Origin: an uncultured Chlorobiaceae bacterium
Lineage (GTDB): Bacteria; Bacteroidota; Chlorobiia; Chlorobiales; Chlorobiaceae
Direction: 5' to 3'
Length of the DNA: 59,404 bases
Assembly (NCBI GenBank): GCA_903869365.1
Contig: CAIPYV010000125.1
Coordinates: forward strand, 1-59,404
Under the pieces are notes generated by a model. That model had not been told where the DNA came from, did not search any database, and saw only the letters and a list, made by a program, of their open reading frames with translations. Positions within the stretch are counted from its first letter, which is position 1. The number at the start of each line of letters is the position of its first letter. Position numbers and translations under genes: made by a program. Of the stretch, positions 37,513 to 42,449 are shown in pieces.

Positions 37513-38796
37513 ATGGAAGAGGCCGAAAAAACAATTAAAAAGCCCGCAGTCAGCACCCGTTCTGACATCCCGCAGTATGTGCGTGCTTTTGTGCCGTTTT
37601 TCTGGAAAAATTTTATTCATGACAGGATTTTTCTTGGAGCAGGTTCCCTGGCTTTTCAGACGCTGCTTTCAATCGTACCTGTTCTTGCAGTCATCTTGTC
37701 AATATTAAGTGTTTTTTCTGTATTTGCTCCCTTTAAGCGCTCAATTGAAGATTTTCTTGTCCAGAATTTCATGCCAGGCGCTGGTACGGTGCTCCATCAC
37801 TATCTCACAGATTTTATAGGGAAAACATCCAGCGTCCCTCTTCTTGGCGGGGTGTTTCTGTTTATTATTGCCCTCTTTCTCATTTCGACTGTCGACCATA
37901 CCCTGAATGAAATATGGGAGGTGCATGCTCCCCGAAAGGCACTGCAGGGCTTTACCCTCTACTGGACGGTACTGACGCTTGGACCGGTGCTTATCGGTAG
38001 CAGTCTTGCAGCAAGCTCATACGTCTGGTATACGGTGTTTACTGAAGGCCCCCTGCTCGAACTGAAAACCCGACTGCTCTCCTACCTTCCCTTTATTAAT
38101 TCGATTTTTGCATTTTTTCTGTTGTACATGCTTGTGCCGAATCGTCGGGTAAGGTTTGTTCATGCCATGTCCGGAGGGTTCCTTGCCGCAGTGATGTTCG
38201 AACTCTCAAAAATATGGTTTGTCTTTTATGTCACTCATATTTCCACGTTTGAGCATATTTACGGGGCATTGTCGGTTATTCCCATGCTTTTTTTCTGGAT
38301 TTATCTCGGATGGGTTGTTGTGTTGACAGGTGCGGAATTTGTTTTTTGTCTTGGAGCTCTGAAACCCCTTGGCGGAGTAGTTGAATCATTCAATCCATTG
38401 CGGGGTGTTCCAGTGATTCTTTCGGTACTCGGTTTAATATGGAACGGTCAGAAAAACGGTCGTGCAATGAATATGAAGAAGATTTTAAAGACGGTTTATG
38501 CGCTGCAGCCTTCCGATTTAAGAAAAATTATTGATATTCTGCTTCAGCACGATGTAGTTCATATAACGGCAAATGGTGACCTGGCTGTCAGTCGAGATCT
38601 TTATGTTCTGACGCTTTACGATCTCTATGCAATACTTCCGCCTGGATTTACAAGTGACGAAAACGCTTCGCTGATTTCAGAAGGTAATAGCGTACATTTG
38701 GAAACAATCAGAAAAGGGGTATCGGATTGCCTGAAAAACACTCTGAATATGCCCGTTGCTGCCTTGTTAGAGGATATTAATCAAGAACATTTATGA
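37513..38796 (+). CDS. YihY/BrkB family membrane protein
   Basis: 427 residues. About six hydrophobic segments in residues 35-280 match the YihY/BrkB family (once wrongly called ribonuclease BN): FIHDRIFLGAGSLAFQTLLS, the TVDHTLNEIWEV segment and IPMLFFWIYLGWVVVLTGAE. Residues about 290-427 form a soluble C-terminal extension with helices, perhaps winged-helix-like (LKTVYALQPSDLRKIIDILL). Function of the family is not settled. Its stop overlaps the dnaX start in ATGA. Confidence 0.88.
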   Translation: MEEAEKTIKKPAVSTRSDIPQYVRAFVPFFWKNFIHDRIFLGAGSLAFQTLLSIVPVLAVILSILSVFSVFAPFKRSIEDFLVQNFMPGAGTVLHHYLTDFIGKTSSVPLLGGVFLFIIALFLISTVDHTLNEIWEVHAPRKALQGFTLYWTVLTLGPVLIGSSLAASSYVWYTVFTEGPLLELKTRLLSYLPFINSIFAFFLLYMLVPNRRVRFVHAMSGGFLAAVMFELSKIWFVFYVTHISTFEHIYGALSVIPMLFFWIYLGWVVVLTGAEFVFCLGALKPLGGVVESFNPLRGVPVILSVLGLIWNGQKNGRAMNMKKILKTVYALQPSDLRKIIDILLQHDVVHITANGDLAVSRDLYVLTLYDLYAILPPGFTSDENASLISEGNSVHLETIRKGVSDCLKNTLNMPVAALLEDINQEHL

Positions 38797-39959
38797 CGTA
38801 TCAGGTTATAGCCCGGAAATATAGACCCGCCAAATTTGCTGATATTACCGCACAGGAGCATGTTACCCGTACTATCCAGAACTCGCTGAGGATGGGAAGA
38901 GTTGGACATGGGTATATTTTTTCAGGATTGAGAGGCGTGGGCAAGACAACTGCGGCAAGGGTTTTCGCCAAAGCAGTTAACTGCCTGAAAATGATGGAAG
39001 ACCCTGAATACCTGCAGCAGGTGACCGAACCTTGCGGTGAGTGCGAAAGCTGCAGAGACTTTGATGCAGGCACCAGCTTCAACATTGCAGAGTTTGATGC
39101 CGCCTCCAACAACAGTGTCGATGATATCCGCATGCTGCGTGACAATGTCCGGTATGGACCGCAGAAAGGAAAGTATCGTGTCTATATTATCGATGAGGTG
39201 CACATGCTTTCCATAGCAGCCTTCAATGCATTTCTCAAAACCCTGGAAGAGCCCCCACCGCACGCTATTTTTATTTTTGCCACTACCGAGCTTCACAAGA
39301 TCCCGGCTACAATTGCTTCACGGTGTCAGCGTTTCAACTTCAAGCGGATTCCTCTCGAGGATATCCAGCGTCAGCTTCAGCTTGTCTGTGATGCCGAGCA
39401 TATAACCGTTGATAGTGATGCTCTTCAGCTTATTGGCCGCAAGGCTCAGGGATCGATGCGCGATGCCCAGAGTATTCTGGATCAGGTTATAGCCTTTTCA
39501 GCAGAGAATGATCATGAAGGCTCTATCAGTTACCAAGGTGTTGCCGAGCTGCTGAACTATATTGATGATGATCAGATGTTTGCCGTTACTGACGCCGTTA
39601 CGGAGCACAATCCTGTCAGGATGCTTGACGTTGCCCAGTTTGTGATAAGAAATGGGTATGACGAACAGGATTTTCTTGAAAAACTCATTGAGCATTTGAG
39701 GAATTTTCTGGTGGTGCAGAATCTATCTTCGACTCGTCTTGTTGAGCGACCCGATGCGATACGTGATCGTTATCAGCGTGATGCTGGCAATTTATCTCCA
39801 CGCTCTGTCATGGAGATGGTTGATTTTCTTCTGCTGACCCAGAAAGAGCTGAAGTTTCAGTTTGAATACCAGTTTCGTTTTGAGCTTGCACTTCTGAAGC
39901 TTATTGATATTGTGCATCCGGCTGTTCCTCAAAAAAAAAAGTCCCTGACAAGCCTCTGA
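38793..39959 (+). CDS. dnaX: DNA polymerase III gamma subunit (zero-frame product of dnaX)
   Basis: 388 residues. Clamp-loader ATPase: Walker A GLRGVGKTTAARVF, zinc cysteines in CLKM and CGECESC, Walker B VYIIDEVHML, and sensor region ATIASRCQRFNF. Domain III extends to about residue 380. The frame closes with PQKKKSLTSL right after a run of ten A (39931-39940). This is the position where E. coli dnaX shifts frame. The zero-frame product is the right size for gamma. The start overlaps yihY (ATGA), so it is translationally coupled. Confidence 0.93.
   Translation: MTYQVIARKYRPAKFADITAQEHVTRTIQNSLRMGRVGHGYIFSGLRGVGKTTAARVFAKAVNCLKMMEDPEYLQQVTEPCGECESCRDFDAGTSFNIAEFDAASNNSVDDIRMLRDNVRYGPQKGKYRVYIIDEVHMLSIAAFNAFLKTLEEPPPHAIFIFATTELHKIPATIASRCQRFNFKRIPLEDIQRQLQLVCDAEHITVDSDALQLIGRKAQGSMRDAQSILDQVIAFSAENDHEGSISYQGVAELLNYIDDDQMFAVTDAVTEHNPVRMLDVAQFVIRNGYDEQDFLEKLIEHLRNFLVVQNLSSTRLVERPDAIRDRYQRDAGNLSPRSVMEMVDFLLLTQKELKFQFEYQFRFELALLKLIDIVHPAVPQKKKSLTSL
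39935..39941 (+). promoter_or_regulatory. dnaX slippery heptamer A AAA AAG
   Basis: In the zero frame the codons are CAA AAA AAA AAG, so A35-AAA-AAG is the same heptamer used by E. coli dnaX for -1 frameshifting. It is the end of a ten-A run that could also cause transcriptional slippage, as in Thermus dnaX. TCTGAAA (39955-39961) can pair with TTTCAGA (39996-40002) downstream as a weak stimulator. Confidence 0.75.
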
Positions 39960-40531
39960 AAAAGCTCACGGTATCCTCTCCCTCGGCTCCGTCGGTTTCA
40001 GAACATCTCCCAACCCTTAAGCCCTCGGAAACAGGGGATATCGATCTTGGCTCCTGGCAAAAAAAACTTTCAGGTTTTGCCTCGAATCCATCTGTTCAGC
40101 AGCTTCGAGCTAATGTGCCGACAAACACCATAAGTGAGGCTGGCGCAGTTGCGCTCGAAAAGATAGCCGATCTTGATACTCTGAAGCTTGAATGGCGTCA
40201 GTTTCTTGATCATATTTCAAGGAAAACCCAGAACTTCATGGCAACCCACCTGCAATCCTGTGAACTTGAAGCGTGCAGCCCAAGTGGAGTACTCGACATT
40301 GTCTGCTGCAAAAAGTTTTCCTATGAAGAACTCCTGCTCGATATCGCCGTTCTTCAAAAGGAGGTATCAGAGTTTTACGCACTGCCCCTGAAGCTCCGTA
40401 TTCTCTATGATGCGGAGAAAGATGCATGTACAAAAGAGAAGACACTCTTTACCATTTTTCAGGAACTCGCGGAAAGCAATGAGGTCATAAGGTTTATTAT
40501 CAGGGAATTCGGGGGCGAACTTGTTTACTGA
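39942..40531 (+). CDS. dnaX: DnaX tau-specific C-terminal region, reached by -1 shift
   Basis: After the A-run the -1 frame is open without a stop to TGA at 40531. It begins VPDKPLKKLTVSSPSAPSVS (a proline/serine linker) and ends with a folded domain: LKLEWRQFLDHISRKTQNFM, EVSEFYALPLKLRILYDAEK, RFIIREFGGELVY. A -1 shift at 39935-39941 gives a tau-like protein of about 579 residues, normal for tau. An independent start at 40115 is possible but has no good ribosome site, and a tau tail alone is not known as a gene. A sequencing error in the homopolymer is the other explanation. Confidence 0.8.
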
Positions 40532-40628
40532 GGGGCTCAAGGTGTTTTATATATTATTAAAAATTCTACATATTCAGTTTTTTCAGGCGGGTTAAAATTT
40601 TTTCAATGTCAAAGGACGATAGAACAAT

Positions 40629-42449
40629 ATGAGTAAAGCTGCATGGAGCACGCAGACTCTGAAAAACCGGTTCCGCTCTGATTATTGCGGGTTATTAAGT
40701 CCGGAGCTTGAGCATACCTCAGTGAAGCTTGCAGGATGGGTTCATAGAAAAAGGGATCATGGTGGGTTGATTTTTATAGATTTGAGGGATCATACCGGTA
40801 TCAGTCAGCTTGTTATACAGCCGGAACAGCGTGAACTGTTTGCAAAAGCCGAACAGCTTCATGTTGAATCGGTTATCAGAATAGAGGGTATCGTTGTCCG
40901 GCGCGCTCCGGGGGCAGTCAATCCCCGTCTGGCGTCAGGTGAGATCGAGGTTGTGGTCAGTCAGATCACCGTTGAAAGTCACGCGCAACCATTGCCTTTT
41001 CCTGTAGCCGATGAGGTGCCGACATCGGAGGAACTCCGTTTGAAGTACCGCTTTATTGACCTGCGTCGCGAAAAAATTCATGAGAATATTATTTTTCGCA
41101 GCCGACTGACGGCAGCTGTCCGTCGCTATCTCGAAGAGAAAGAATTTATTGAAATACAGACGCCGATTCTTACCTCAAGCTCTCCGGAAGGCGCAAGGGA
41201 CTTTCTGGTTCCAAGCCGTCTTCATCCAGGTAAATTTTATGCACTTCCTCAGGCCCCGCAGCAGTTCAAGCAGCTGCTGATGGTATCGGGCTTTCCCCGT
41301 TACTTCCAGATAGCCCCCTGTTTCAGGGATGAAGATGCCCGAGCCGACCGCAGTCCCGGTGAGTTCTATCAGCTCGATATGGAAATGGCTTTTATTGAGC
41401 AGGATGATCTGTTCGCCATTCTTGAAGGCCTGATCGAGCATCTTACCACGACCATGTCGCAAAAGCGGATTTCGCAGTTTCCATTTCCGCGAATCAGCTA
41501 TAAGGAGGTTATGAACCGTTTCGGGACAGATAAACCCGATCTGAGAATTCCGCTTGAAATCAGTGATGTTACTCCGCTCTTTGTGGATTCAGGGTTCAAG
41601 GTATTTGCAAATAATACCAGAGAGGGGTGTTGCGTGAAAGCTCTTGTTTTAAAGGGCCGGGCTCATGAATCAAGACTGTTTTTCGACAAAGCGGAAAAAC
41701 GGGCCAAGGAGCTCGGTTCTGCAGGGCTGGCTTATATCCAGTTCAGGGAAGAAGGCCCGAAAGGCCCGGTAGTCAAATTTCTTTCTGAAGAAGATCTCTC
41801 ACATCTTCAAGAGCAGCTTGTTCTTGAAACTGGCGATGTTGTCTTTTTCGGTGCCGGTAAATGGGAACACACCTGCAAAATTATGGGAGGCATGAGAACC
41901 TATTTTGCTGATCTCTTTACGCTTGACAAAGACGAACTCTCATTTTGCTGGATTGTTGACTTCCCGATGTATGAATACAACGAAGAAGCCAAAAAGATCG
42001 ACTTTTCACACAACCCGTTCTCCATGCCGCAGGGAGAGATGGATGCGCTCGAAACAAAGCTTCCGCTCGATATTCTCGCCTATCAGTACGATATCGTCTG
42101 TAATGGTATCGAACTTTCAAGCGGAGCCATCCGTAACCACCGACCCGATATCATGTATAAGGCATTCGGTATTGCCGGATACACCAAAGATGAGGTGGAC
42201 GAGCGGTTTGGTCACATGATCGAAGCCTTCAAACTTGGCGCTCCACCCCACGGAGGCATAGCTCCCGGCCTTGACCGTCTTGTGATGATTTTGCGGGATG
42301 AGCAGAACATTCGTGAAGTTATTGCCTTCCCCATGAACCAGCAGGCCCAGGATCTCATGATGTCCTCACCTTCGGAAGTAACCCCCGCACAGCTTCGTGA
42401 ACTGCATCTGAAAGTTGATTTACCCAAAAAACCGGAAGAGAAGAAATAA
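40629..42449 (+). CDS. aspS: Aspartyl-tRNA synthetase
   Basis: 606 residues, the long bacterial AspRS. Order of domains: OB-fold anticodon-binding (about 15-115, [20 protein letters not shown]), class II core beginning near 145, GAD insertion (about 300-420), and C-terminal core. Motif 2 is [20 protein letters not shown] and motif 3 [30 protein letters not shown] binds aspartate. Bacterial enzymes with this plan may be non-discriminating (also charging tRNA-Asn) where GatCAB is present; that cannot be read here. Confidence 0.97.

Follow-up and report, generated by a model that had tools for sequence, protein, structure and literature searches.

Run length and frame closure at the gamma/tau junction of dnaX point to probable transcriptional slippage in an uncultured Chlorobiaceae bacterium and its relatives

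In Escherichia coli, the design of dnaX (Rfam RF00382) rests on the heptamer A_AAA_AAG combined with a Shine-Dalgarno-like stimulator and a stem-loop. Thermus dnaX relies on slippage of the polymerase, by which the three frames are mixed (PMC1088944, PMC5009743), and a review ties the use of slippage in Thermus to two lysine tRNAs (PMC5009743). Two-ORF dnaX genes were described by Antonov 2013 (PMC3711429) as a set of 17 genes spread over 12 genera, for which slippage was proposed and of which nine genes have 10 A's; Chloroherpeton thalassium (9 A's), Chlorobium chlorochromatii (8) and C. phaeobacteroides (7) are named there. NCBIfam models NF011516 (PRK14955) and NF011515 (PRK14954) split the DnaX of green sulfur bacteria into a short form of 397 positions and a full form of 620 positions, and given these two models the tau tail of two-ORF dnaX genes is likely left unannotated.

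We analysed a 59,404-nt stretch of DNA from an uncultured Chlorobiaceae bacterium (hereafter the window; all features below lie on its forward strand), which comes from a 2.93-Mb draft assembly of 136 contigs. Its dnaX starts with an ATG at 38793, sharing the sequence ATGA (38793–38796) with the stop of the upstream ORF, and its zero frame runs to 39959, coding for a gamma-sized product of 388 aa that consists of DnaX domains I–III plus 8 residues past the glutamine at an A-run. This N-terminal part matched TIGR02397 (427 bits) and PRK14955 (816 bits), a 397-position model of the short form alone, and contained the Pfam domains DNA_pol3_delta2, DNAX_ATPase_lid and DNA_pol3_gamma3. The best match of the protein among the named genome contigs returned was an uncultured Chlorobiaceae MAG (87%), and dnaX was also present in the family and genus neighbours of the window genome. 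By our own reading of the ORF list, aspS follows downstream at 40629.

The junction is built around a run of ten A's (C-A10-G, 39931–39940), the proposed site of RNA polymerase slippage. The zero frame reads CAT CCG GCT GTT CCT CAA AAA AAA AAG TCC CTG ACA AGC CTC TGA and is shut by the gamma stop at 39957–39959. The −1 frame (AAA GTC CCT GAC AAG CCT CTG AAA AAG) stays open until 40531, encoding a tau extension of 196 codons plus the stop (39941–40531, TGA at 40529–40531), and joining it to the N-terminal part yields a tau of 579 aa. The third frame (AGT CCC TGA) is shut by a TGA at 39946–39948, which would end the product of A9 or A12 transcripts at 384 or 385 aa. On re-reading the sequence, we obtained the same gamma and tau sizes and the same coordinates as an earlier note on this DNA, and found A_AAA_AAG, a possible ribosomal −1 site, exactly in frame at the end of the run (39935–39941), as that note had it. 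The zero frame also stops soon after the run as the note described, but at the sixth codon past AAG (16 nt past the last A) rather than ten codons later. The third-frame TGA, absent from the earlier note, is the more informative feature. A second, shorter run (A8, 40059–40066) lies within the tau linker, where the tau frame reads TGG CAA AAA AAA CTT; slippage at this run would truncate part of tau.

The −1 tail matched positions 491–620 of PRK14954, the model of full-length DnaX with 620 positions (E 1.4e-55), and the same model separately matched the N-terminal part over residues 1–377, which together with the TIGR02397 and PRK14955 matches bears out the identification of the gene as dnaX and of its −1 tail as tau. 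When the −1 region was compared with the tau tails of relatives, the differences fell mostly at third codon positions: 5, 7 and 35 at positions 1, 2 and 3 of the −1 frame against the closest relative, and 5/9/31 and 15/18/43 against further relatives. The tail was open in every complete copy among the Chlorobiales relatives. These results indicate that the tail is a translated and constrained frame under purifying selection, and a tau C-terminus under such selection is not what a sequencing error would leave. The open copies and the third-position bias argue equally against a decaying tau tail, which, like a homopolymer error in the assembly, we consider very improbable.

A folded C-terminal domain of tau was placed at 40115–40528 from the PRK14954 match, an AlphaFold model and the structural neighbours of that model. 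A Pfam search with the window tail gave no match, and among the tails of relatives 1 of 33 reached PF20964 (DnaX_C, E 0.015); a PDB sequence search with the tail gave no meaningful match. The AlphaFold model of the tail had a mean pLDDT of 73.7, and its nearest structural neighbour was the complex of SirA and DnaA domain I (Z 10.3, 80 residues, rmsd 2.0), followed by a resemblance to the DnaB loader DciA (Z 8.0, 77 residues, rmsd 2.7). The known tau domain V was absent from the neighbour list of this model of mean pLDDT 73.7. Tau domain V has been described as having such a KH-like fold. As DnaA domain I/SirA and DciA are replication proteins, the modelled similarity is suggestive, though not proof, of a replication-protein interaction fold in the tail.

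About 170 relatives were compared in all. The Chlorobiales set comprised 93 sites, of which 83 came from Chlorobiaceae and the remaining 10 from three further families, the genomes being related and the site counts thus not independent. The run was A10 at 84 of these sites, A9 at eight and A11 at one. Since A9–A11 was found at 93/93 sites and a run of at least nine A's occurred in only 0.6% of 330-nt sense-strand control windows (Bacteroidota loci), the structure is not due to chance. In Chlorobaculum dnaX, lysine is encoded by AAG in 87% of cases, yet the run always consists of A. The constancy of A10 (84/93) also bears on replication slippage, or phase variation, by which the length of the DNA run would differ from cell to cell and gamma and tau would come from different genotypes. 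A10 tracts can mutate and lengths of 9, 10 and 11 do occur among species, but an essential subunit made by only part of a population is implausible, and we find this explanation scarcely credible. A10 is not rare in itself, as the window genome holds 18 exact A10 runs, which counts against the weight of the run taken singly. The 17 other runs (G000, L236–L252), at least 10 of which lie inside sense ORFs of at least 150 aa, are possible further slippage sites.

The template frame of tau varied across the order. Tau requires one extra A (the −1 frame) at 77/93 sites, the window included, and is encoded in the zero frame at the other 16, for example L161 and L162. Genomes assembled as a single contig were found in both groups, L145, L155 and L157 needing the extra A and L161 and L162 having tau in the zero frame. 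A maximum-likelihood tree built from the N-terminal DNA required at least 11 changes of the tau frame between 0 and −1; shuffled labels on the same tree gave 14.2 changes on average, with a minimum of 11. Counting only A10 genes, at least eight switches remained, so that homopolymer miscounts do not explain them. The indels responsible were located upstream of the run (L116 and L173 have a common extra T, with A10 kept), inside it (A11 in L107; A9 in L147 and L157) and downstream of it, in Chlorobaculum.

These data also speak strongly against a miscounted run in the window. Homopolymers are error-prone and the source is a draft of 136 contigs, but the closest relatives carry A10, and the same frame break recurs at 76 other Chlorobiales sites, including the single-contig genomes L145, L155 and L157; we rejected assembly error on these grounds, and the relatives gave no sign of the miscount that the earlier note had raised as a refutation. 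The note had also held that relatives with one uninterrupted dnaX frame and no slippery site would speak against its reading. Single-frame relatives exist, but the A-run is retained in them and their other two frames are closed, so that they support slippage rather than refute it.

Closure of the frames not used by tau was the second conserved property. Both non-tau frames stop within nine codons at 82/83 Chlorobiaceae sites, compared with 18.4/83 expected by synonymous resampling of the tau codons and 4.5/83 by shuffling of the linker codons, and 2.8% of control positions further downstream had both frames closed. In the three other Chlorobiales families, both frames were closed within nine codons at 7/10 sites. 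The stop codons and their offsets differ between lineages, which argues that the stops are not one inherited word. The third frame alone was closed within nine codons at 82/83 sites versus 46.7 or 30.2 expected, but this is the weaker test because in some species the amino acids force the stop, and in the window itself the expectation was 0.9. A −1 ribosomal mechanism would have no use for a third-frame stop. One genome carried two different dnaX loci, L148 (G048:C60) and L169 (G048:C82), the latter being the sole Chlorobiaceae site with the third frame open (150 codons); the second locus could be contamination or a duplicate.

We considered a programmed −1 ribosomal frameshift at A_AAA_AAG, like that of E. 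coli with the products reversed, so that the zero frame would give gamma and the shifted frame tau. The heptamer is in frame at 39935–39941, Atkins 2016 lists C. phaeobacteroides as an unpublished candidate for ribosomal shifting with E. coli-like signals, and two-ORF relatives all need exactly the −1 frame and never +1. This direction (103/103 two-ORF sites require one extra A for tau, 0 require two) was dropped as a test of mechanism, since insertion-biased slippage and a −1 ribosomal shift both predict it. The features specific to a ribosomal signal were lacking. RF00382 had no match in 39600–40600 (E≤5) or at the site in a genome search (E≤10), a search in which 1/14 control genomes scored over the cut-off. 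The 70-nt segment downstream gave no structure signal (fold z −1.25 in the window, mean 0.12 over 93 sites), and no Shine-Dalgarno-like site was detected, the best pairing of the 20 nt upstream being −1.7 kcal/mol (mean z −0.22 over 93 sites). The genome has tRNA-Lys with both CUU and UUU anticodons, and signatures of both were found in about nine tenths of the genomes of the order. Furthermore, the Chlorobiales keep at least nine A's although six or seven would provide the heptamer, and the heptamer is lost with the run kept in L179, L181 and L183 (A10-T) and in many Bacteroidota (A10-C). Together with the unneeded third-frame stop, this makes ribosomal frameshifting an improbable source of tau.

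The earlier note had called the site E. coli-type and had added that a ribosomal and a transcriptional route were both conceivable. Judged from one sequence alone, the second statement is fair. The label itself finds no support, as the heptamer is present but simply follows from A10-G in that phase, neither the phase nor the final base is conserved, the stimulators are absent and both tRNA-Lys are present. A combination, in which polymerase slippage would give most of the frame mixing and ribosomes would add some −1 shifting on A-rich codons, is permitted by the sequence, and A-runs are generally known to be slippery to ribosomes and polymerase alike (see also PMC4363877); but no ribosome-specific feature is conserved, and we hold such a dual origin to be just as unlikely as ribosomal shifting by itself.

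We therefore favour transcriptional slippage, and consider it quite likely that the window dnaX makes gamma and tau in this way. RNA polymerase would realign on the ten templated A's, so that mRNAs with different numbers of A's would coexist. Messages made without slippage (A10) would be read to the zero-frame TGA, giving gamma of 388 aa, while A11 messages, with one extra A, would bring the tail in frame to give tau of 579 aa. A9 or A12 messages would run into the stop at 39946–39948 and yield gamma-like proteins of 384 or 385 aa. That slippage takes place, how often it does so and that the cell contains both proteins are inferred. Since every product other than tau would be gamma-like, the template frame would not matter, and within the family it could have been free to drift as long as the run persisted. 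Across these genes, the conserved properties are run length and closure of all frames except that of tau, and not the phase, the next base or the heptamer, a pattern that fits slippage better than a ribosomal shift. Antonov 2013 reports runs of just 7 or 8 A's in some Chlorobium species, which is short for slippage and counts against it.

The pattern extended beyond the order. A first set of loci outside Chlorobiales was found by patterns in the N-terminal domain only and is unbiased as to the linker. In the 330 nt behind domain III, a run of at least nine A's was present in 48/67 Bacteroidota, 2/3 Ignavibacteriota and 0/9 loci of other phyla. The Bacteroidota and Ignavibacteriota set (L010–L088; 50 of 70 loci with a run) had lengths of A9–A10, rarely 11–13, and in Bacteroidota the run was nearly all-or-none (≥9 or <7), length 7 occurring in only two loci and length 8 in none. 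At the 50 sites, the phase of the run was 0 in 9, 1 in 24 and 2 in 17, and the following base was C in 28, G in 15 and T in 7; A_AAA_AAG was in frame at 8/50. Tau was encoded in the zero frame at 40 sites and needed one extra A at 10, and both other frames were closed within nine codons at 46/50 versus 17.4 or 10.0 expected. One Bacteroidales family contributed 25 more A-run sites; tau was in the zero frame at 9 of them and needed one extra A at 16, and both other frames were closed in 25/25. This distribution indicates that a device for two products, gamma and tau, at an A-run would be conserved across the whole phylum.

Many dnaX genes without an A-run were observed in one Bacteroidales family, that of genome G098 (locus L062) and its relatives. 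Their zero frame ends in TAG right behind domain III, at 361–383 codons, and the tau tail goes on in the same frame past the TAG for 182–259 codons (L062:6000–6200, L034, L048, L254–L256, L260–L264, L268, L269, L271, L272, L275, L277, L280, L281 and L311–L340). The stop after domain III was TAG in 46/46 loci. It is followed by AT[T/A] GC[A/T/C] AG[A/G] and then by a short GC-rich inverted repeat, for example CGCC-TCA-GGCG or GUC-CUAA-GAC. A 31-nt sequence model with strict filters found exactly one copy in 103/190 genomes of the family; 246 genomes from the rest of the order had none. Of 39 distinct tails of these genes, 7 themselves end in TAG, which means that this codon still serves as a stop in the family. 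An Rfam search with the element returned nothing, and no paper on a UAG element in Bacteroidales dnaX was found in a literature search. The element is thus a likely candidate for programmed UAG readthrough that would make tau in place of slippage, with re-initiation at AUU/AUA as a possible alternative. Another Bacteroidales dnaX, L019, had neither A-run nor TAG element; from about 378–382 codons in, its tail is found in a different frame (266 aa open), owing to an error or to yet another device.

Taken together, these observations lead us to lean towards a joint reading in which the ancestor of Bacteroidota, Ignavibacteriota and Chlorobiota already had a phase-indifferent A9–A10 slippage site behind domain III. 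Slippage would populate every frame, so that the frame in which the template encodes tau would drift almost neutrally (Chlorobiales by themselves show at least 11 switches), and one Bacteroidales family would have swapped the device for an in-frame UAG followed by a conserved element, that is, for programmed readthrough. The gamma/tau pair would then have persisted across the phylum through a device that leaves the encoded frame nearly irrelevant, a comparative pattern relevant to the long-standing debate on whether gamma is functional. The pattern also suggests a way to tell polymerase slippage from ribosomal frameshifting by sequence comparison: run length is kept, phase and next base are free, and the non-tau frames are closed. 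It matters more than the window gene itself, the tau of which annotation probably misses. A literature search, with most subscription papers outside its reach, found no description of the run across the phylum, of the switching between frames or of the statistic on closed frames.

Of the known systems, E. coli dnaX resembles the window gene in having A_AAA_AAG in the zero frame at the gamma/tau boundary. It differs in that the window has neither the Shine-Dalgarno-like stimulator nor the stem-loop and does not match RF00382, its tau is not in the zero frame, and it has ten A's instead of six; a single tRNA-Lys (UUU) reading AAG is an E. coli feature, whereas the window genome has two tRNA-Lys. 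The resemblance to Thermus thermophilus dnaX is closer: a sense-strand run of at least about nine A's (A10 in the window) behind the common N-terminal part, stops just downstream in both non-tau frames (here 39946–39948 and 39957–39959) and two tRNA-Lys. In Thermus, however, tau is the template frame and slippage has been proved, whereas the window template encodes gamma, its tau would need an extra A, and slippage is deduced by comparison; by this analogy the window dnaX would work like that of Thermus with an arrangement that is not identical. The two-ORF genes of Antonov 2013 share with it a dnaX split by a −1 shift at poly-A into an ORF for domains I–III and an ORF for the tau tail, with 7–10 A's at the junction and A10 in the window; the window species is not known to be in that set. 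The slippage trick itself is known, and the window dnaX is a further case of an arrangement already reported, to which our analysis adds the closure of the other frames, the frame switching on the tree, single-frame relatives that carry the run, the phylum-wide spread, and the tRNA and structure tests.
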